From positions 13,203-77,202 of the forward strand of contig NZ_JH417835.1 of NCBI RefSeq assembly GCF_000239295.1: a stretch of 64,000 bases of DNA. Direction: 5' to 3'. How positions within the stretch are numbered: position 1 is the stretch's first letter; each line of letters begins with the position of its first letter. The DNA comes from Flavonifractor plautii ATCC 29863 (GTDB lineage Bacteria > Bacillota > Clostridia > Oscillospirales > Oscillospiraceae). Below are positions 25,191-39,119 of the stretch, piece by piece. Made by a program: the position numbers and the translations under genes. Below the pieces are notes generated by a model. That model was given only the letters and a program-made list of their open reading frames with translations, made no database searches and was not told the DNA's origin.

Positions 25191-28100
25191 TCAGCCCATC
25201 ACCTCGCCGCCGGGCGCATCATGGGCGTCGGACCAGACTCGCTCAAGAGCGGCCCAATCGCGCTCCGTCAGCCTGCCGGTCCACGCCTCCGTGTCTTCCC
25301 CTTCTGTCCAGATATAGTCATGGGAGTTGGTGGCTTCCTGCATGGCTGCGTAGTACCAGGCGGAGGTATTGTTGTCCGGCCAGGTGAGCATCTCTCCGCG
25401 GGGCAGCAGGTGTGCTTCATGAGGGGCCCGGCCCAGGGTGCGGTTGACGATGGTGCACGCCTCGGCCCGGGTGATGTTGTCCAGCGGGTGGAAGGTGCCG
25501 TCGGGCATGCCCTCAATTAGTCCGTACTCCACCGCTGCGGCCAGGAAGGTCACATACCACTCGGTTCCCTCCACATCGGAGAATCGGCCGTCGTATGTGA
25601 AGTCCCCTTCGGTAAACTCGAAAAAGCTCACTGCAATTTTGGTAAACTCAGACCGTGTGATGGGTTCGGTAGGGCGGAAGGTGCCGTCCGGATAGCCGTC
25701 CAGAATACCCATGCTGGTCAAGGTGGATATGGCGTTGTTGTACCAGTCGCCGGAGGCCACGTCGGAGTATGGATTGGTCTGACTCCAATAGGCCTCCCTG
25801 GCCTCGTCGGTGAGCAGACGGAAAAAGATAGTGGCCACCTCGCTGCGGGCGATATCGCCCTCCGGCCGCACAGTGCCGTCCGTATAGCCGATGATATAGG
25901 CCACGTGGTCCTCGGTATTCAGAGACTCAGGCTCGTCGTCGCGGTCCGGGCGGTGGGAGGGGCGGCCGGGGTCGGGACGGCTGGTCTGAATGGTGTAGGA
26001 CACGGTTGGCCTGCGGAAGTTCTCCGGCTGGCCGGGCCGGCTGTTGCTGTCCACCGGGTACAGGGTCGCGCTGTTGTTGGTGTAAAGGCCGCTGTAGTTC
26101 TCGCTGCCGTCCGCATCGTACTGGCCGTAAGTCCCCTCGGCGGTCTGGGGATTCGTCAGCTTCACGGTGTAGGTCAACTGAACAGGGGCAAAGTTGGAGA
26201 CCGGGACGTTGATCTCCCACACAAAGCACTCGTCGGACGCACCGTCCTGGCCTTTGGCGTAGTATTTGAGCACAAAGTCATAGGCTGATTCGTCCGCGTT
26301 TGCCGCGTCGTTGAAGCCGAAGCCATAGGCGCTGGTGATATAGGGATCATTGAACGAAGGGTCAATCAATTCGGTCTTGTCGAGAACCTCTCCGTCCACG
26401 GTCAGGGCCAGCCGGTCTATGTCGTTGACAAAATCAAAGTCGTACCCGTTGCTTTTGTTGTCGGTGCCGGAGCCAATTTCATCCACCACATAGCTGCCTT
26501 TATCAAGTAGGTAGTAGATGTCGTTCTGGATGTCGGCAAAATCAACGGTTTCGCCGCCGGCCAGGTAGTCCATGAAACTGATGCCAAAGCCATAACTGTC
26601 GACACCGCTCTCAGCTTTCAGCGCATAACAATGGTACTCTTTGCTCATTTCCTGATAGAGCGCATTACTATTGTAGAGAGACAGATCAACGTTGATTGGA
26701 TAGCCGTTCCTATTTACATAAGGGATGGAGCCTTCAGAATCCAAATCACTTGTTTTTGGACGATTCGGATCGTTCAAAGAATATTCGTATTTGGTGTATT
26801 CACTATCCAATACGCCTTTTACTGCATCAAAGTAGCTGGCCCAATTTTCCGGGACATAATCAGAGGAATACTTACATTCCCACGCGGACAATCCATCATT
26901 TGGCTGCTCGTTCCTTCCGCCCGTTCCGGTATCACCACCGTTTCTGGAAGAAATTGTGTATGCCTGATCGTAGTTTCCGCCTTTGCAATAATAATACGTT
27001 AAACCATCACTGACAAGGATTAAATATTTCCGAGAGCTATCAACACTTGTATCTGCATCCAGCATTGCCTTGCCAGCCAGCAGTCCGGCGTGCATATTGG
27101 TTCCACTCTTTAGTGTCTGCTGGATCGCGGCTTCAATGTCCGCATATTCGGTAGCCAGATCAAAGAATTCACCATTATTGGCGACATTGGCAACCGCATT
27201 AAAAATAACTACACCGACATTGATCTTCGCGCCAGTGTTCTCAAGCTGATCCTTTAGGGAACGAAGCATCTCCAGAGACTTGGCCTCAACCGTTGCACTC
27301 GTAGATTTGTCCAATACAAAGACCACATCTGTAACGAGCTGTTCCTCTGCCGCGGGCAGGGACAGGGTCACGTCGGACTCAAAATTGCTGTCCAGATTGG
27401 TTGCGGTCTTGGATTTGGAGGTGTCCCATCCGGTTTCTTCGCCGGGCTCCAGAGGGCTCAGGCCATGGGCTGCTTTCAGCGCCGTAAGTCCGGTTGCAGA
27501 GGCAAACCCGGTCAGCGGCTCAAAATCCGTGAACTCCACCGCGTGATAGGGCTCCTCATGCGCCTCCCAGCGGGCGCCCTCGCTGTCGTCGTACCAGCCG
27601 TCTATGGCGTCGATGCAGTCTCCCTCCCCTCCGTCAAGGGTCCAGCCGGAGCCCACTTTTCCGAAGGTGAGAGAGGGCCCGCTGACACCTTCGGAAACAT
27701 AGATATCATCGCCTGCAACAAGTGCATGATTGTTGCAGATTATGGCATCGGCGGGCAGAATTACAGCCGGGTCATAGTTATCGCCATAGCCGACATAAAT
27801 TCCGCCGCCGTAGCCATCCAGCAGGCTGTGCGAAACCTTGTTGCCGGTGATCTTGAGGACAGCCCCGTCCTCTACCGTCAGATTGCCTTGCCGCACATAC
27901 AGTCCGGTGTTGTTGTTATCCTCAATATAAAGCTCGCTGGTACTGTCCACTGTGAATGGATAGTTGTTGTAGAGCCGTACAGCGGCATAACCATAGCTGG
28001 AATTCCCGGCGTTTCCGGTCACAGTAACAATGGAACCGTTCTCGACGGTAAAGGCGTTGTTTACGGTAATCCCCATACCGTTGTTATTTTTTGTGTTAAC

Positions 28101-29012
28101 GGTGGAGTTATCGATACTCAGTTCACCGGCAGAAAGGCCATGGGAACCGTTGTTGTTGAAATCAACGTCAGAATTTTTAATTATAAAATGAGATCCGTTA
28201 GAGCCGTTTCCACGGCTGTTGATAACTTTGACCTTGGAATTTGTTATGTTGACATCAAAGGTACCAGTAAACCCGGAACGGTTTCCGTCGGAAACAAAGG
28301 TAGAGTCAACTATATTGGTAATACATTCATTTCCTTCGTTCCAAGACAAAGCGTTATGGGGATAATTTTGAATGGTTAGGTTAGAACCATTCAAAATATT
28401 TAACTCATTGCCGCCGCAAAAGTAAATAGCTTGGGTATTGTCTTTGGACACCCCGGTACCGTCCATGGTCATCTTGACATTATCCAGAGTAATTTTTGCG
28501 CCGTTACCAGCACAGATGGTCATCCAGTTCCACTCGCCAGTAGCCGGGGTAGAACCGATACCAGTCATCACAATATTGACATCTTTAAAGGTCAAGGGAG
28601 CACCTGCGGCACCATACCCCATCGCAATACCGTTCTTTATAAATGTAATAGTAGGCTTTTTATTGAGCCCATTTGCGGCCTGGATTACTAATTTCTTGCT
28701 CAAGAACATACCCTCACTGGTGGCATCGGCCAGAAGTTCGATGGTTGCACCGTCCTCCGCTACGTTCACCGCCTCGTCCAGTGTGGCATAGGACGTAGCC
28801 CCGATCTGTGCCACAGTACCCTCGGCGGAGGTGGAGACCTCCTCCTCCGGTTCCGGCGTGTCCGCGTCCTCCGGGGGCTGGGTGGTGGTCTCCGTTTCCT
28901 CCGCCGTCTGGTCCACGGGTAGCTCTGTCGCCAGCGCGGAAACCGGCAGCAGGGACAGGCACAGGGCCAGCACACAGAACAAACCCGTGAATCGCTTCAA
29001 AATTCTTCGCAT
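25191..29012 (-). CDS. Large secreted SLH-anchored VWA surface protein
   Basis: 1273 residues. A signal peptide (1-28) is followed by an acidic Thr/Pro linker. Residues about 60-470 are Asn-rich short repeats typical of a right-handed beta-helix (NNNGMGITVNN, NNNGSHGLSAG). A VWA domain follows with MIDAS DKSTS at Asp568 and a SGTNMHAG Thr loop. Three SLH modules (about 1020-1190; GYTDGTVRPEG, GYPDGTFRPTE, GMPDGTFHPLD) anchor it to the cell wall. Strong ribosome site AAAAAAGGAGG. It is likely an adhesin or matrix-binding protein. No strong fixed promoter is seen upstream; a recombinase-linked invertible cassette is there instead. Confidence 0.9.
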   Translation of the reverse strand: MRRILKRFTGLFCVLALCLSLLPVSALATELPVDQTAEETETTTQPPEDADTPEPEEEVSTSAEGTVAQIGATSYATLDEAVNVAEDGATIELLADATSEGMFLSKKLVIQAANGLNKKPTITFIKNGIAMGYGAAGAPLTFKDVNIVMTGIGSTPATGEWNWMTICAGNGAKITLDNVKMTMDGTGVSKDNTQAIYFCGGNELNILNGSNLTIQNYPHNALSWNEGNECITNIVDSTFVSDGNRSGFTGTFDVNITNSKVKVINSRGNGSNGSHFIIKNSDVDFNNNGSHGLSAGELSIDNSTVNTKNNNGMGITVNNAFTVENGSIVTVTGNAGNSSYGYAAVRLYNNYPFTVDSTSELYIEDNNNTGLYVRQGNLTVEDGAVLKITGNKVSHSLLDGYGGGIYVGYGDNYDPAVILPADAIICNNHALVAGDDIYVSEGVSGPSLTFGKVGSGWTLDGGEGDCIDAIDGWYDDSEGARWEAHEEPYHAVEFTDFEPLTGFASATGLTALKAAHGLSPLEPGEETGWDTSKSKTATNLDSNFESDVTLSLPAAEEQLVTDVVFVLDKSTSATVEAKSLEMLRSLKDQLENTGAKINVGVVIFNAVANVANNGEFFDLATEYADIEAAIQQTLKSGTNMHAGLLAGKAMLDADTSVDSSRKYLILVSDGLTYYYCKGGNYDQAYTISSRNGGDTGTGGRNEQPNDGLSAWECKYSSDYVPENWASYFDAVKGVLDSEYTKYEYSLNDPNRPKTSDLDSEGSIPYVNRNGYPINVDLSLYNSNALYQEMSKEYHCYALKAESGVDSYGFGISFMDYLAGGETVDFADIQNDIYYLLDKGSYVVDEIGSGTDNKSNGYDFDFVNDIDRLALTVDGEVLDKTELIDPSFNDPYITSAYGFGFNDAANADESAYDFVLKYYAKGQDGASDECFVWEINVPVSNFAPVQLTYTVKLTNPQTAEGTYGQYDADGSENYSGLYTNNSATLYPVDSNSRPGQPENFRRPTVSYTIQTSRPDPGRPSHRPDRDDEPESLNTEDHVAYIIGYTDGTVRPEGDIARSEVATIFFRLLTDEAREAYWSQTNPYSDVASGDWYNNAISTLTSMGILDGYPDGTFRPTEPITRSEFTKIAVSFFEFTEGDFTYDGRFSDVEGTEWYVTFLAAAVEYGLIEGMPDGTFHPLDNITRAEACTIVNRTLGRAPHEAHLLPRGEMLTWPDNNTSAWYYAAMQEATNSHDYIWTEGEDTEAWTGRLTERDWAALERVWSDAHDAPGGEVMG

Positions 29013-29087
29013 ACTTATCCTCCTTTTTTCAAATATGCTGGGACTCTATTGTTCAAAAAGACCTGCTGCAATCACCTCGCTTTGTAT

Positions 29088-29110
29088 GGCAAAATAAATC
29101 TTTTGTCCTA
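29088..29110 (-). repeat. Left inverted repeat of the invertible cassette
   Basis: A 23-bp sequence whose reverse complement is identical, base for base, to 29340-29362. Outer end GGCAAAATAAA, inner end TTTTGTCCTA. The match stops abruptly on both sides, as expected for recombinase sites. Confidence 0.85.
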
Positions 29111-29153
29111 GGTTCACCTGTGTGTTCCGGCAGGATGCGGCATAAAGGGCGAT

Positions 29154-29182
29154 AAAAAAAGCCCCGTGCCGAGGCACGGGGC
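29154..29182 (-). terminator. Terminator inside the invertible cassette
   Basis: GCCCCGTGC/GCACGGGGC stem with CGAG loop. Seven A at 29154-29160 give a T7 run on the minus strand. It stops leftward transcripts in the present orientation and would face the other way after inversion. Confidence 0.9.
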
Positions 29183-29266
29183 TAAAAATGGGCGCAGAAG
29201 ATGGGCCGGTGAAGCATAATTGCTTGCCCCGGTCTGCTTTTCCATGTCCAAAACAGGCTGCACTTC

Positions 29267-29295
29267 TTGAAAGAGAGCAAAAGATGTGGTAAAAT
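29267..29295 (+). promoter_or_regulatory. Strong promoter inside the invertible cassette
   Basis: -35 TTGAAA (29267-29272), a 17-bp spacer, -10 TAAAAT (29290-29295), pointing right. No plus-strand gene starts within about 1 kb downstream, so in this orientation it only drives antisense RNA to the recombinase. Confidence 0.8.
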
Positions 29296-29339
29296 GAATA
29301 CCGTTCTATGTACTGAACATTTGCTTTTCAAGCCGTATA

Positions 29340-29362
29340 TAGGACAAAAGATTTATTTTGCC
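29340..29362 (+). repeat. Right inverted repeat of the invertible cassette
   Basis: 23 bp, starting TAGGACAAAAG and ending ATTTATTTTGCC; exact inverted copy of 29088-29110. It abuts the recombinase stop codon. Confidence 0.85.
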
Positions 29363-29363
29363 G

Positions 29364-30209
29364 CTATGATATCAGCCCCAGACGGGCAAGCTGGCGGGCG
29401 TGCTCCGCGCCGGTGGAGAGCAGGTAGATCCGGGTGGTCTCGATGGAGGAGTGGCCCAGTACATCGGCCAGCTTGACCACATCCCGGCTGGCCTGGTAGA
29501 AGGCTCTGGCAAACAGGTGGCGCAGGTTATGGGGAAACACCTTGCTGTCTGCCACTCCGGCCTTCCGGCACACCGCTTTCATCTCCGCCCACACCTGCTT
29601 TCTGGATATGCCTCTGCCGCTTCTAGTGAGAAAGATCTCGCCGGAGGCGATTTTTTGTGCCCGCCCGTATTGCAGCAGCTTGCGGCACAGCTTACCGGGG
29701 ATCAGGATCGTGCGGATTTTCCCCTTCAGCGACACCTCCGCCCGGCCGCGGCGGGCGGCCTCCATGGTCAGGTATTTCACCTCACTCACCCGGATTCCGG
29801 TGGAGCAGATGGCCTCCATGAGCAGGCCCAGACGCTCCCGGCCCAGTCCCCGGGCGGCGGAGAGCAGGCGGCCGTACTCGGCCCGGCTCAGCTCCCGGTC
29901 GGGGGGGCGAAAAAGCCGCCGCTGGAGCCGCAGTGGTTTGACCGTGCAGTCCATCCAGCCCAGGAAACGAAAAAAACGGTTCAGCCCGGCCAGCTTGCTG
30001 TTAACTGTGGCAGGGGAGAGGCCCCGGCGCAGCAGCTCGGCCTTCCAGCCGCCCGCCGAACCGGCGGCCACGGTCTCCGGCGCCAGCCAGGCGGCAAACT
30101 GACGCACCGACCGCGTGTACTGTTTGATGGTCTCTGTGCAGCGCTCCTCTGCCCGGAGCGCCTGGGCGAATGCAGCCAGCGTTTCCACGGTAATGCTTCG
30201 CAGTTCCAT
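29364..30209 (-). CDS. Tyrosine site-specific recombinase, likely DNA invertase
   Basis: 281 residues (XerC/D and phage-integrase class, about 300). An N-terminal SAM-like core-binding domain (about 5-95) precedes the catalytic domain, with the full set R140 (STGIRVSEV), Lys162/164, H227-x-x-R230 (HNLRHLF), H253 (LGHSS) and Tyr262. No att-like tRNA end or phage genes are nearby, but a 23-bp inverted-repeat pair flanks a promoter cassette right beside its 3' end. It is therefore best read as the dedicated inverter of that cassette. A GGGGGG stretch precedes ATG 30209. Confidence 0.88.
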   Translation of the reverse strand: MELRSITVETLAAFAQALRAEERCTETIKQYTRSVRQFAAWLAPETVAAGSAGGWKAELLRRGLSPATVNSKLAGLNRFFRFLGWMDCTVKPLRLQRRLFRPPDRELSRAEYGRLLSAARGLGRERLGLLMEAICSTGIRVSEVKYLTMEAARRGRAEVSLKGKIRTILIPGKLCRKLLQYGRAQKIASGEIFLTRSGRGISRKQVWAEMKAVCRKAGVADSKVFPHNLRHLFARAFYQASRDVVKLADVLGHSSIETTRIYLLSTGAEHARQLARLGLIS

Positions 30210-30319
30210 ATGGTTCTGCCCCCCATTGAATCAAATATTTTTTATTTTACCCAACTACGCGGGATGATATGAAGCGGCGGAGGCGGGTTCGGGAGAAGGG
30301 GGGGCCGCTGCCGCGGGAA

Positions 30320-34624: not shown

Positions 34625-35541
34625 AAAATTCTATCACGGAGGACAAGACTATCTGGGCTGGCCTGAACCACCCGGAGCTCCCCCTGGAGGAGGCCGACAT
34701 AGCTGTGTTCGGTATCCCCTACGACGGCGGGGTCAGCTTCCGCTCCGGCACTTGTGAGGCGCCCCAGGAGCTGCGGAAAATCACCCACACCATCTCGCCC
34801 ACCACCGAGGATTTCCGGGATATCTCCCCTGTGAAGGTCAAGGATCTGGGTGACTGCGTGGGGAAGGACCGGGACGAGATGTTCGCCGAGGCGGAGGAGC
34901 TGGCCTATCAGGCCGTGAAGGCGGGAAAGTTCTTTACCATGATCGGCGGCGACCACTCGGTGACGATCCCCGTCCACCGGGGCGTCAACCGGGCGGTGGA
35001 GGAGGACTTCGGTATCATCCACATCGACGCCCACTTCGATCTCTGCCACGAGATGCACGGGGACATTCTGTCCCACGGCTCCACCGAGCGGCGGGCCACC
35101 GAGCTGTCCCACGTGGGGGACAGTGACCACCTCTACTTCCTCGGCATCCGCTCCATCGAGTCCGACGAGCTGGAGTTCTACCAGAACAACAAGATCAACG
35201 TCCTCTCCGCCGCTGATGTGGACCACCTGGGGGTGCCGGCGGCACTGGAGCGGATGGTGTCCCACATGAAGCGGTTCTCCAAAGTCTATATCACTCTGGA
35301 TATTGACTGCCTGGACCCCGCCTATGCCGCCGGTACCGGCACGCCCCAATTCGGCGGCCTCACCGCCCGGCAGCTCCTGGACCTGCTGAAGGGCCTTTTT
35401 GACGGCCTCAACATCATCGGCATGGACGTGGTGGAGGTGGCCCCCAGACTGGACCCCTCTCTGGCGGCGCTGTTCGCGGCCCGGAAAATTATTACCGAGT
35501 GCTGGGCCCACCACTACTTCAAAAACCTCGCCCGTGCGTAA
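34615..35541 (+). CDS. speB: Agmatinase-like ureohydrolase
   Basis: 308 residues (agmatinase about 300). The binuclear Mn motifs are all present: GGDHSVT, DAHFDLCHE and DIDCLDPAYAAGTGTP. Ureohydrolases split a guanidino group to give urea (or formamide from formiminoglutamate). The substrate cannot be read directly; agmatine or a guanidino acid is likely. ATG 34615 lies behind AAAGGAG within the end of the hydrolase gene. Last gene of the sigma-54 operon. Confidence 0.82.
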   Translation: MLLKNSITEDKTIWAGLNHPELPLEEADIAVFGIPYDGGVSFRSGTCEAPQELRKITHTISPTTEDFRDISPVKVKDLGDCVGKDRDEMFAEAEELAYQAVKAGKFFTMIGGDHSVTIPVHRGVNRAVEEDFGIIHIDAHFDLCHEMHGDILSHGSTERRATELSHVGDSDHLYFLGIRSIESDELEFYQNNKINVLSAADVDHLGVPAALERMVSHMKRFSKVYITLDIDCLDPAYAAGTGTPQFGGLTARQLLDLLKGLFDGLNIIGMDVVEVAPRLDPSLAALFAARKIITECWAHHYFKNLARA

Positions 35542-35560
35542 GCAGAGAGAAGAAGACCAA

Positions 35561-35609
35561 GCGCATAAAACACGGCCTCCGGTTCAGGCGGAGGCCGTGT
35601 TTTATGCGC
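35561..35609 (+). terminator. Terminator of the sigma-54 operon
   Basis: A perfect 21-bp stem (35561-35581 with 35589-35609) with a 7-nt loop. The T-rich part (TTTTAT) lies in the 3' arm and is followed by CAGAAAAACTTTT. Confidence 0.85.
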
Positions 35610-35690
35610 TCAGAAAAACTTTTCAGACCGTTCATCCGTCCAATGTTTAACAGCCACTGCGGCGGTATACGTTTGGATGAGGTGAGCTTA

Positions 35691-38600
35691 ATGAAGCGGA
35701 TAGGTGCGCTGCTGCTCTGCGGTATTCTGCTGCTCCCGGCCGCCGGAGCTTCCGGCACCCCTTGGCCGGCCTGGGCAGCCGAGGCGCTGGCCTGGGGACG
35801 GGAAAAGTCGGTCAGCCGGGCATTTCTGGCCTCGCCGGGACAGCGTTTGACCCGCGGAGCGGTGGCCCGGCTGCTCTATGAGTCGGCAGGGCAGCCCGCT
35901 GCGCATGAGGAGTGCCCTTTCTCTGATGTGTCTGAAAAGGATGCCGTAGCCGTGGGCTGGGCAGCAGGGCAGGGCTATCTCACTGGCGTGGGAGATGGAA
36001 CCTATGAGCCAGGCCGCCCTGTCACCCGGCAGGAATTTGCCGCTATCCTCTGGAGACAGGCGGGAACACCCGAGGTACCGGTCCAAGGACTCGAGCGTTT
36101 TGGGGACGCCGGCACTGTGTCGGAATGGGCGAGGGATGCTGTGCTCTGGTGCCAGCAGGCCGGGGTAATGGCAGGCCGGAGCGGGGATAAACTGGCCCCA
36201 GAGGATACCATCACCACAGCGGAGGCGTTGGTCATGCTGGAGCGGGCCGCCGGGCTGCCCGATGTCGGGCAGCTCCGGGACGATCTGGAGATCCTTGCCG
36301 CACACCACCGGCCGGTGGGCTCCCAGGGGGAGGCCGATGCAGTCCGGTATCTGAGGGACCGCTTTGAGGAAATGGGGTACAGCGTCACTCTCCAGCCCTA
36401 TACCGACGGCCAGGGCCGCACCGGGCACAATGTCGCCGCGGTAAAGGCGGCCTCTGTTCCCGATGCGGATATCTTGGTGCTGTCCGCCCATCACGACAGT
36501 GTGCCCACTGCCTATGGGGCAAATGATAATGCCTCGGGTGTGGCTGCCCTGCTCTATACGGCGGAGGCGCTGAGGAATGTACCGACTGATACGGAGGTGC
36601 GCTTCCTCAGCTTCACCGATGAAGAGAACGGTAAGAATGGATCCCGGACCTACACCGCCTCTCTGACAGAGGAGGAGCGGACTCGGATAGTCGGTGCGAT
36701 CCAGTTCGATATGCTGGGCGGACTCGGTTCCACAGGGACTTTGGTGTGTACTGTAGACGGGGAGGCGAACTGGGTCAGCGACCTGCTTCAGAAAAAGAAT
36801 CCGGGGTTGGAGAGCGGAGTGGAGACCGCCAGCGACCATACCTCGTTTCAGCTCTCCGGAATACCTGCTGTCCTGCTGATGCAGAGGGGGCGGGGCTACC
36901 TGTACCACTCGGCGGCGGATACGGCGGAACAGCTGGATCTGTATGCCATTGCGGCTGCCGCTGACAGCGCAGCAGCCGCGGCGGAGGAGATCTGCTCGGC
37001 CGATACCCCCTCCTACCGGGCTCTGGCCCGGGAGCAGGGAGAGAGAAGCGCCTACCGCCAGACCAGACAGAATATGATCTATTTCGGCAGTTCCAGAGCG
37101 GATACTGAGGCGTACATCGGAGCGGCGGGAGAGCCCGTAGGCGCCAGTGAGATATCCGGGGAGGGGTGGACCGACACCTATGAGACCTACCACTACTCCA
37201 TGCGCTGGTTTGACAGCAAAGTTCCTATGAGTACCTATTACCAGTACCGCAACGGTTTTCTAGAGCGCATTGAGCTGCGGCCGGAGGAAACCGGCTATAC
37301 AGGGGAACAGGTACGGGAACTCATTGAGGCGATGTATGGCTCCCCCGTATCAGAGGAGGGGGGACAGACCGGCTGGTCCGACCCCATTTACAGCAAATAT
37401 ATCACGCTGTCCCGTGACGAGGAGGGGTGTCTCGTTACGGTGGGAAATTACTCCGTGGGCATCACCAATGTGCTGGCCTCCTATCCGGTGAGCGGCGGTC
37501 AAGCCGTCATCAGCGATCCGGAGGATGCGGCGGTATGGAACTATCTGTGTTCGATCCTCCCGCTGGAGGCCAGACAGAAGTTGGCCGAGTTCAACCTGTT
37601 TACGGACGGTACCAGTAATGTCCTGGCCTATACCTCTCCCATTCGGGAGGAGGGCGTTACGGACAACACCCGCTTTTCCATCAGCATTGACTACTTCGAT
37701 GTGTATGATGAAAACGGGGAGAAGCGGGACTGGAGCAAACTGACCTACACGATTTTACACGAGTATGGCCACGTCCTGCTGGAGGACGAGACACAGATAG
37801 ACCTGACCGTGGGCAGGGACACTCATGACCCGGCGGGATTTGTGGAGGGGGCCTTCCGCAGAGCGTTTTACGATGCGTTTTGGAGGGAGCTTGGAGTCAG
37901 CGGCGCAGGTGATTACGACAGATCGCCTACTCACTATGTGAGCCGTTACGGGGCCAACTACTTCCATGAGGATATCGCCGACACCTTTGCCGTCTTTGTG
38001 TTGGGTGGGGAGCCTGGAAAAAACACTGTGGCAGAGGAGAAGCTGCGCTTTTTCTGGAGGGACCCAGATATGACGGCGCTGCGGTCCGCTGTCCGGGAAA
38101 ACCTGGGGTTGGAGTGGCCGGAGCGAGCTGACACCAGCAGTTCCAGCCCCACGCCGCCGGTGGCCGCTGCTCTGGAGGAATTGGAACAGAAGCTGATGGA
38201 AGCGATTGTAGCGGTGGAGCAGCCGCCCGCCTTAGCATGTGCGGCACCGGTCGGTTCGGCGGAGCTGCCCATGGCTGTTAAAAACCTGTACTACAGCATC
38301 TTATCCGACCATCCGGAGTACAAGTATGCCTATGATCTCACTTCAGAGGTAGGGGAGGACGGACTGCTCCGCTGTAAAGTGTCCTATATGCCCTACCGTA
38401 CCGGCGCGTATCCCGCCGGATTTCAGGGAATAGAGGTGGATGGCCTGGATCGTCTGGTGGAGGTGGCGCGGGGTGGACTGTCACAGGAGAGTATTCCCAT
38501 CCGGATTACCGAGCCCACTCTGACAGTGGATGCCATGAACCGGGCGCTTCAGCAGGTGGGCGGAGGTTGGCTGTTGTGCCAGCTCAGCCGTGACGGCACC

Positions 38601-39119
38601 GCTATCACGGTCACGCCCCAGGGCGGCCTGAGCCGAGAGGAGGCCCTGAACCGGCTGGCTCAGTCAGAGTGCCTGGCAAGGCAGGTTTATGAGGAAATCG
38701 TCACGGCGGAGATGGGGAAGGCTGCACAGGCTGAGGCGCTGTATGCTTACTTGACGGAACAGGTACGTTACGACTTCCGATACTACAGCCAGCCCGGTGA
38801 GATGCCCTACAGCGCTACCACCGCATACGGGGCGCTCCATGACCATCTAGCCATCTGCGGCGGCTATGCCCAGGCGTTCCAGATGCTTTTACAACAGGCG
38901 GAGATTCCCTGTATTACCGTCAGTGGGAAGATGGGTGGAGAGAACCACATGTGGGTTCTGGCCCAGGTGGACGGCCAGTGGCTCTATTTTGATCCCACCA
39001 GCGACCGGGGCAGGGTTGATTACGGTTTTCAGTACTTCGGAGTGGGAGAGGATGCTCTGTTCCGCTATACCTGGGACCGGGAGGGGGCGCGCAGTTTAAC
39101 GGAGGCGCTGTTTCCCTAA
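35691..39119 (+). CDS. Secreted multidomain protein: SLH, M28 peptidase, HEXGH peptidase and transglutaminase-like domain
   Basis: 1142 residues from ATG 35691, behind GATGAGGTGAG; a signal peptide (about 1-22) fixes this start. Residues about 35-195 are SLH-like modules (GYLTGVGDGTYEPGRPVTRQEFA). Residues about 200-440 are an M28 aminopeptidase-like domain (LSAHHDS with His267/268 and Asp269, GANDNASGVAALL, TDEENGKNGS, SDHTSF). A zincin motif HEYGH lies at 690-694, with the likely third ligand Glu760 in HEDIADTFA. The C-terminus (about 990-1120) is transglutaminase-like with Cys1056, His1086 and Asp1101. It would act on peptides or proteins at the cell surface. I know no standard family with this combination. 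Confidence 0.83.
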   Translation: MKRIGALLLCGILLLPAAGASGTPWPAWAAEALAWGREKSVSRAFLASPGQRLTRGAVARLLYESAGQPAAHEECPFSDVSEKDAVAVGWAAGQGYLTGVGDGTYEPGRPVTRQEFAAILWRQAGTPEVPVQGLERFGDAGTVSEWARDAVLWCQQAGVMAGRSGDKLAPEDTITTAEALVMLERAAGLPDVGQLRDDLEILAAHHRPVGSQGEADAVRYLRDRFEEMGYSVTLQPYTDGQGRTGHNVAAVKAASVPDADILVLSAHHDSVPTAYGANDNASGVAALLYTAEALRNVPTDTEVRFLSFTDEENGKNGSRTYTASLTEEERTRIVGAIQFDMLGGLGSTGTLVCTVDGEANWVSDLLQKKNPGLESGVETASDHTSFQLSGIPAVLLMQRGRGYLYHSAADTAEQLDLYAIAAAADSAAAAAEEICSADTPSYRALAREQGERSAYRQTRQNMIYFGSSRADTEAYIGAAGEPVGASEISGEGWTDTYETYHYSMRWFDSKVPMSTYYQYRNGFLERIELRPEETGYTGEQVRELIEAMYGSPVSEEGGQTGWSDPIYSKYITLSRDEEGCLVTVGNYSVGITNVLASYPVSGGQAVISDPEDAAVWNYLCSILPLEARQKLAEFNLFTDGTSNVLAYTSPIREEGVTDNTRFSISIDYFDVYDENGEKRDWSKLTYTILHEYGHVLLEDETQIDLTVGRDTHDPAGFVEGAFRRAFYDAFWRELGVSGAGDYDRSPTHYVSRYGANYFHEDIADTFAVFVLGGEPGKNTVAEEKLRFFWRDPDMTALRSAVRENLGLEWPERADTSSSSPTPPVAAALEELEQKLMEAIVAVEQPPALACAAPVGSAELPMAVKNLYYSILSDHPEYKYAYDLTSEVGEDGLLRCKVSYMPYRTGAYPAGFQGIEVDGLDRLVEVARGGLSQESIPIRITEPTLTVDAMNRALQQVGGGWLLCQLSRDGTAITVTPQGGLSREEALNRLAQSECLARQVYEEIVTAEMGKAAQAEALYAYLTEQVRYDFRYYSQPGEMPYSATTAYGALHDHLAICGGYAQAFQMLLQQAEIPCITVSGKMGGENHMWVLAQVDGQWLYFDPTSDRGRVDYGFQYFGVGEDALFRYTWDREGARSLTEALFP

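Follow-up and report, generated by a model that had tools for sequence, protein, structure and literature searches.

The window, i.e. the whole 64-kb stretch of DNA analysed here, holds a short segment bounded by two inverted repeats and located between the gene of a large surface protein and that of a tyrosine recombinase (Table 1). Both genes are on the - strand, with 1 bp separating the recombinase stop codon from one repeat and 75 bp separating the surface-gene start from the other, in agreement with a preliminary description of this DNA that had placed them 2 bp to the right and 76 bp to the left of the repeats, respectively. The N-terminus of the surface protein is signal-peptide-like, as judged by eye.

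Table 1. Features of the cassette and the flanking genes (positions are those of the window).
Feature	Position	Strand	Description
Surface-protein gene	25191-29012	-	1273 aa; VWA domain and C-terminal SLH domains
AGGAGG	29019-29024		6 nt before the surface-gene ATG
Surface-gene-side inverted repeat	29088-29110	+	GGCAAAA-TAAATC-TTTTGTCC(TA)
Core, surface-gene-side repeat	29095-29100		6 bp
Cassette interior	29111-29339	none	229 bp
One-sided intrinsic terminator stem	29160-29183	-	T run towards the surface gene
Promoter	29267-29295	+	TTGAAA-N17-TAAAAT with TG before the -10 (extended -10), consensus match; -35 at 29267-29272, -10 at 29290-29295
Recombinase-side inverted repeat	29340-29362	-	Perfect reverse complement of the other arm
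Core, recombinase-side repeat	29350-29355		6 bp
Tyrosine recombinase gene	29364-30209	-	281 aa; complete ORF, full catalytic set
Weak promoter-like site upstream of the recombinase gene	30244-30273	-	9/12, consensus match only

In the recombinase, R140, K164, H227, R230, H253 and Y262, which from their motifs we take to be the catalytic R, K, H, R, H and Y, are all present. The protein matches the Pfam family Phage_integrase (PF00589, 4.6e-20) and the XerC-like PDB chain 4a8e_A (1.6e-20), and it belongs to the Xer-like tyrosine recombinase family. Equivalogue identity to XerD or XerC was rejected, as both NCBIfam scores are far under their cut-offs (107.7 against 329.6 and 100.7 against 335.15, respectively).

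The 23-nt arms are perfectly complementary at a spacing of 229 nt, and the repeat search thereby bore out the perfect inverted copies first noticed by inspection. When the window was searched throughout (seed 14, arms of at least 17 nt, spacing up to 2000 nt), seven further inverted pairs were detected, all of at most 22 nt; six of these, hairpins or a palindrome, have arms no more than 7 nt apart, which leaves one other spaced pair, 17 nt long at 94% identity. With up to 3 mismatches allowed, the 3.82-Mb genome contains exactly these two copies of the repeat, compared to none for the reversed-pattern control. A degenerate site scan of the genome (up to 2 mismatches) returned 10 places, versus 3 in the control, two being the window pair and the remaining eight each lying on a separate contig. 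Elsewhere in the window, a second large and probably secreted protein (1206 aa, 35499-39119) has an SLH-like N-terminus and a peptidase-like region, as judged by eye, and the repeats near it are hairpins, with no spaced pair.

As assembled, the promoter aims at the 3' end of the recombinase gene and away from the surface gene, an orientation that we call OFF and the only one available for this locus, from one assembly. The terminator stem comprises 10 pairs (-23 kcal/mol, z -5.5) with a T run only on the - strand, and in the hairpin scan across relatives described below the window cassette scores -20.4 in the OFF direction and -2.1 in the other. Mirroring the coordinates places the -10 at 29155-29160 and the start point, taken as 7 nt past the -10, near 29148, giving a leader of about 136 nt. 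On the surface-gene strand, no promoter-like site was detected between the repeat and the ATG at the scan threshold. A weak terminator-like hairpin on the + strand, within the recombinase gene at 29638-29650, could end an OFF-state antisense RNA, whose length would be about 350 nt. Scans and coordinates thus agree with the initial account of the promoter, its direction and the strong one-sided terminator inside the repeats, as well as with its leader of about 135 nt, the positions and numbers being correct within one or two bases.

Taken together, inverted repeats flank a short intergenic segment, as in invertons, and an adjacent site-specific recombinase retains its catalytic residues. A promoter facing the gene in one orientation only is likely present as well, because the consensus match sits at a place shared with relatives.

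Conservation and orientation of the cassette among relatives

Within the genus, 9 of 20 genomes, the window's own counted, encode a relative of the recombinase at E 1e-80 or better, and at E 1e-60 45 of 149 relatives do. The genome contig search yielded 16 named loci, including one from Pseudofrankia (L038) with a recombinase at 35% identity, distant from the rest. The host of the window belongs, by genome grouping, to the same genus as Flavonifractor sp. An112, whose locus (L025) is letter-for-letter identical, over the compared stretches, to that of genome G001, so that G001 is this strain. A second module is located in the same genome as the window (L047, G000:C60, about 1039-1315), with a recombinase 50% identical, the other of the two kinds of site described below, an OFF-facing promoter and directly behind it a flgB-like gene, as judged by eye.

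At 40% identity or above there are 83 distinct recombinases, of which 66 have at least 450 nt of downstream sequence, and inverted repeats starting at most 110 nt from the recombinase stop were identified in 56 of the 66, compared to 2 of 325 control regions taken from the same loci; the partial L037 and the Pseudofrankia locus were excluded from these counts. The search found no inverted pair in the other 10 relatives, and at 54% identity or more 4 of 35 were without detected repeats (L039, L077, L083 and L084), the repeats of L039, L077 and L083 being degenerate or missing. Each site is built of two arms with a core between them, for which 6 bp was assumed in most loci, and there are roughly two kinds of arms, GGACAAAA/TTTTGTCC, to which the window belongs, and CAACATAA/TTATGTTG.

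As the repeat search required a 10-base exact seed, favouring intact cores, a search with the arms only served as a check (67 rows, after exclusion of the identical L126, L129, L131 and L132 and of loci with less than 300 nt downstream). At a loose threshold 60 of 67 loci pass, with identical cores in 36 of the 60 as compared to a shuffle mean of 1.3, and with 24 mismatched pairs, many apparently at wrong sites. At stricter arm scores the cores match in 29 of 32 loci (22 different cores) and in 23 of 23 (19 cores). In matching site pairs the differences are mostly at outer arm positions. Such identity of the cores within a locus, with variation confined mostly to the outer arms, is what strand exchange within the core would demand.

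Several loci have unusual site arrangements. In G039, five 296-bp cassettes (L124, L126, L129, L131 and L132) are 100% identical, against about 93-96% for the longer stretches in which they lie, possibly through exchange between copies or as an assembly effect. Recombination sites are duplicated in L029 (7761-7842 and 8082-8102), with two copies on one side, and partly repeated on both sides in L027 (7846-8161), so that alternative inversions are possible at these loci.

When each cassette is read in the direction of its best promoter-like site, that site falls at a similar position in many of them. By consensus matches alone, 58 cassettes (four identical copies counted) were called as 33 OFF, 14 ON and 11 ambiguous; with a position rule derived from this rule-free survey, 54 different cassettes (the four identical ones excluded) gave 34 OFF, 15 ON and 5 uncalled. 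Both orientations are seen among relatives, the window locus being known in one only. On a tree of 49 recombinases the state changes 14 times, compared to a shuffled mean of 13.0, with at least 8 changes forced by well-supported branches. The orientation as called does not follow the tree, in line with rapid change, though miscalled states would be scattered likewise.

Collinear loci provide a comparison of the cassettes themselves. In L123 (G047), as in L083/L077 of G068, which belongs to a different genus of the same family, recombinase, cassette and recombinase-like paralogue follow one another on the same strand, the L123 recombinase being truncated by a contig end. A reverse alignment connects their intergenic segments over 189-191 nt at 64-66% identity (E 4e-15 and 2e-19), while the recombinase-side ends align in the same sense (22 nt at 95% for L123/L083; 19 nt at 89% for L123/L077), as does a 31-nt stretch at 77% on the other side, with L083 only; these same-sense end stretches include parts of the sites. 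Similarly, a 98-nt stretch of L121 (ON) of G039, comprising one of the arms, aligns in reverse with its OFF paralogues at 69%. Among the loci compared there was no same-species pair with opposite orientations, and L026 and L027, which are 90-95% alike, were both called OFF, L026 being ambiguous without the position rule. Contig ends are in excess near the 3' end of the recombinase gene (within 150 nt 12 of 71 versus 2 of 71 upstream; within 450 nt 14 versus 5, p 0.06; 71 among the matches listed), which is suggestive only as a sign of mixed orientation, as repeated copies in G039 and G096 could partly explain it.

Terminators, genes behind the cassette and dead paralogues

Terminator-like hairpins (no weaker than -10 kcal/mol and followed by a T run) were scanned in the 49 cassettes with a called orientation, the 5 uncalled ones being excluded. 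Hairpins blocking in the OFF direction were detected in 30 of the 49, and hairpins along the promoter in 12, with 7 cassettes having both; the discordant cases are split 23 to 5 (p 0.0009, to be taken only as a guide since the loci are related). Twelve rounds of dinucleotide shuffles gave far lower means of 1.6 (OFF-blocking) and 1.3 of 49, and the hairpins are therefore enriched in both directions, more so in the OFF-blocking one. Pairing the promoter with an opposing terminator that moves along with it thus looks like a frequent arrangement across the family. Such a terminator would shield the target gene from transcription arriving from the recombinase gene in the OFF state and do no harm in the ON state. 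We did not find the combination of an internal promoter and an opposing terminator in the available parts of the cwpV, pdcB and cmr accounts or in the titles and abstract openings among the matches listed for intrinsic terminators with invertible promoters, which does not prove its absence from print.

The genes behind the cassette differ. The surface protein has a match (E 1e-30) in 15 of 19 other genomes of the genus, and the matches listed all fall in its C-terminal part, about residues 996-1258; the surface gene is thus not conserved with the switch, whereas recombinase and repeats are kept. The preliminary description had named repeats lost while genes are kept as one pattern speaking against it, and the comparison gives the opposite, the gene behind differing between species while recombinase and repeats persist, the ten relatives without repeats aside. 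Genes behind cassettes were defined as the longest same-strand ORF starting at most 900 nt past the recombinase stop and subjected to a Pfam scan in 52 relatives (nine loci excluded, the window's own included). Among the best 25 of 51 families, 4 of the 52 ORFs match LRR_5, 3 N_methyl (pilin-type), 2 flagellar rod, 1 flagellin and 1 SLH families. The commonest of the families listed is the treble-clef zinc-finger family DUF4379, with 12 of 52.

A recombinase-like protein of about 285 aa is encoded by the first gene after the cassette in eight relatives; its tyrosine, its Arg I and both of its histidines have been lost. A search added ten more, and the tyrosine and both histidines are absent in all 18, Arg I is absent in 15 and Arg II is kept in 12 of 18. 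No in-frame stop was detected in the ten added stretches, while the genome search counted one TAA in its match for one of them; three broken or contig-edge copies (L049, L161 and L162) are not among the 18. The alignment of the 18 excluded 43 of the 83 active recombinases, whereas that of the catalytic residues had all 83, including L123, which is cut by a contig end and is without the Arg I column. An active recombinase directly precedes ten of the 18 (L123, L039, L044, L077, L083, L023, L025, L089, L172 and L176) and lies about 2 kb ahead of one more (L085), while for seven none was present within the stretch retrieved (L159, L160, L171, L173, L174, L175 and L177). The paralogues of L173, L174 and L177 adjoin flagellar-like genes, and surface proteins or dTDP-sugar/glycosyltransferase operons follow the dead paralogues, all as judged by eye.

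The window locus itself is without a dead paralogue. A tie between the dead paralogue and the ON state, suggested by first calls of 4 out of 4 (Fisher p 0.006), was rejected, as the ten loci in which the paralogue directly follows an active recombinase gave 4 ON, 4 OFF and 2 tied. Structure prediction from two paralogue sequences was uninformative (mean pLDDT 53), and among the matches listed in a literature search, in the parts of those sources available, we found no catalytically inactive tyrosine recombinase in phase variation.

Proposed mechanism and competing explanations

Based on the anatomy of the locus and the comparison with its relatives, we propose that 29088-29362 is very probably an invertible promoter cassette that the neighbouring tyrosine recombinase flips, thereby switching the SLH/VWA protein. 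The reading put forward in the preliminary description, a recombinase-linked invertible promoter captured in OFF with an insulating terminator, is supported by both lines of analysis, i.e. by the recurrence of the repeats, the called orientations, the inverted collinear loci and the opposing terminators, all at the level of sequence. In kind, this is the known invertible-promoter phase variation, of which the window likely holds a well-formed member, placed by family-level comparison.

The course of events that we propose is as follows. The recombinase would bind the two inverted sites, each with arms GGCAAAA / TTTTGTCC around an asymmetric 6-bp core, and strand exchange at the core would invert the 275-bp segment. 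In the OFF state, the promoter would fire towards the recombinase 3' end, while the one-sided terminator would halt leftward transcription of the recombinase gene ahead of the SLH/VWA gene. In the ON state, the promoter would face the SLH/VWA gene, providing a leader of about 136 nt with a good ribosome-binding site, and the terminator would face away. The cell would thereby display a large S-layer-anchored protein in a phase-variable manner. For the window itself, we infer catalysis by the recombinase, promoter activity, the switching of the surface protein and any benefit to the cell.

An extension that we hold tentatively, and consider rather doubtful, is that the cassette is a two-sided state device. 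In OFF, the promoter would produce antisense RNA over the recombinase 3' end while the terminator seals the surface gene; in ON, both effects would be lifted, so that the recombinase level and the flipping rate would depend on the state. In relatives, a dedicated regulator derived from the recombinase but deprived of its chemistry, as the missing tyrosine in all 18 paralogues suggests, would often be the first gene switched on, adjusting the switch or the operon behind it.

Alternatively, the element could be mainly a terminator switch resembling cwpV of C. difficile, in which read-through from the recombinase promoter is gated by the terminator and the internal promoter is minor. This shares the inversion with our favoured explanation, and the two are not exclusive. 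The strong one-sided terminator would block exactly such read-through in the assembled state, and recombinase and surface gene are on the same strand. However, a good extended -10 promoter is located inside the cassette, at a similar place to that in many relatives and in either orientation, the promoter-like site of the recombinase is weak, and the cwpV promoter lies, according to the available part of its description, outside the inverted segment (PMC2784873). We consider a switch worked mainly by the terminator improbable.

The window locus is known in one orientation and 10 of 66 relatives have degenerate or missing repeats, as might be seen if the switch were frozen in this lineage, a relic or a very slow element with intact repeats and recombinase behind which the surface gene is silent or otherwise driven. 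Yet the repeats of the window are perfect over 23 bp, its cores match and every catalytic residue is present, making a frozen switch very improbable. That the recombinase is instead the integrase of a mobile element, with the repeats as its ends or attachment sites and unrelated to gene control, is barely credible despite the match to Phage_integrase, considering that these form an inverted pair with 229 nt and no gene between them, that the arrangement recurs beside quite different genes, and that in viral contigs six stretches matched a pattern, none encoding a recombinase relative by tblastn and none being an exact match to the repeat.

If an invertible promoter is indeed worked by the neighbouring recombinase, a large VWA protein anchored to the S-layer joins the surface structures that are probably phase-variable. 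One recombinase and cassette module recurs across the order with interchangeable genes behind it, comprising surface proteins, pilins, flagellar genes, treble-clef zinc-finger proteins and polysaccharide operons. Their common geometry, with a site at the recombinase stop, a 6-bp core, the place of the promoter and an often opposing terminator, would make such switches predictable from sequence, and cassette orientation is testable in existing metagenome reads. The dead recombinase paralogues represent a specific new candidate regulator; if confirmed in that role, a conserved catalytically dead tyrosine recombinase regulating phase variation would be a new kind of part.

Relation to known switches

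E. coli fimS likewise is an invertible promoter with recombinase genes adjoining the switch, but it serves Gram-negative fimbriae and has two active recombinases. In C. difficile, pdcB and cmr resemble the cassette proposed here in that the invertible segment carries a promoter which, in one of its orientations, drives the gene next to it; they differ in that the targets are signalling genes and, for cmr, in that inversion needs RecV, which inverts several loci (PMC9286219, PMC8844915, as far as their accounts were available). In the available text of these papers, the sole passage of the cmr paper on an intrinsic terminator concerns cwpV, and the word terminator is absent from the main text of the pdcB paper (PMC9286219, PMC8844915).

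The cwpV switch, whose available account also mentions fimS with FimB/FimE, resembles the switch proposed for the window in controlling a cell-wall protein by phase variation and in a terminator acting in OFF; its 21-bp repeats are imperfect and 195 bp apart, its promoter position differs as described above, and recV is not near cwpV (PMC2784873). Membership of the cwpV type of terminator switch was rejected for the window, as a promoter-like site lies inside its cassette. The flg switch of C. difficile is a RecV-dependent inversion before flgB, as the G000:C60 module precedes a flgB-like gene, but there, according to the available part of the report, OFF is made by Rho acting on the leader and not by promoter direction (PMC7446863).

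The closest counterparts come from the hCom2 community, in which inverton group 139, together with the tyrosine-recombinase invertase group 35, draws 32 of 33 invertons from Clostridia, in the available portion of that study (PMC11892184). SLH, S-layer and Flavonifractor are absent from its main text as available, and terminators are mentioned once, as future work (PMC11892184). In Intestinimonas butyriciproducens, an inverton with 14-nt arms and a 227-nt interior by the printed coordinates shifts orientation with passage and growth on mucin carriers, and one of Clostridium sp. D5, with 26-nt arms and a 205-nt interior, likewise shows a shifting orientation in reads (PMC11892184, same portion). 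As in the window module, the inverted repeats of group 139 lie near a tyrosine recombinase, and there reads show both orientations (PMC11892184, likewise in part). By this analogy, in inverted repeats close to a tyrosine recombinase in Clostridia, the group 139 and group 35 invertons may well be of the same family as the module in the window.
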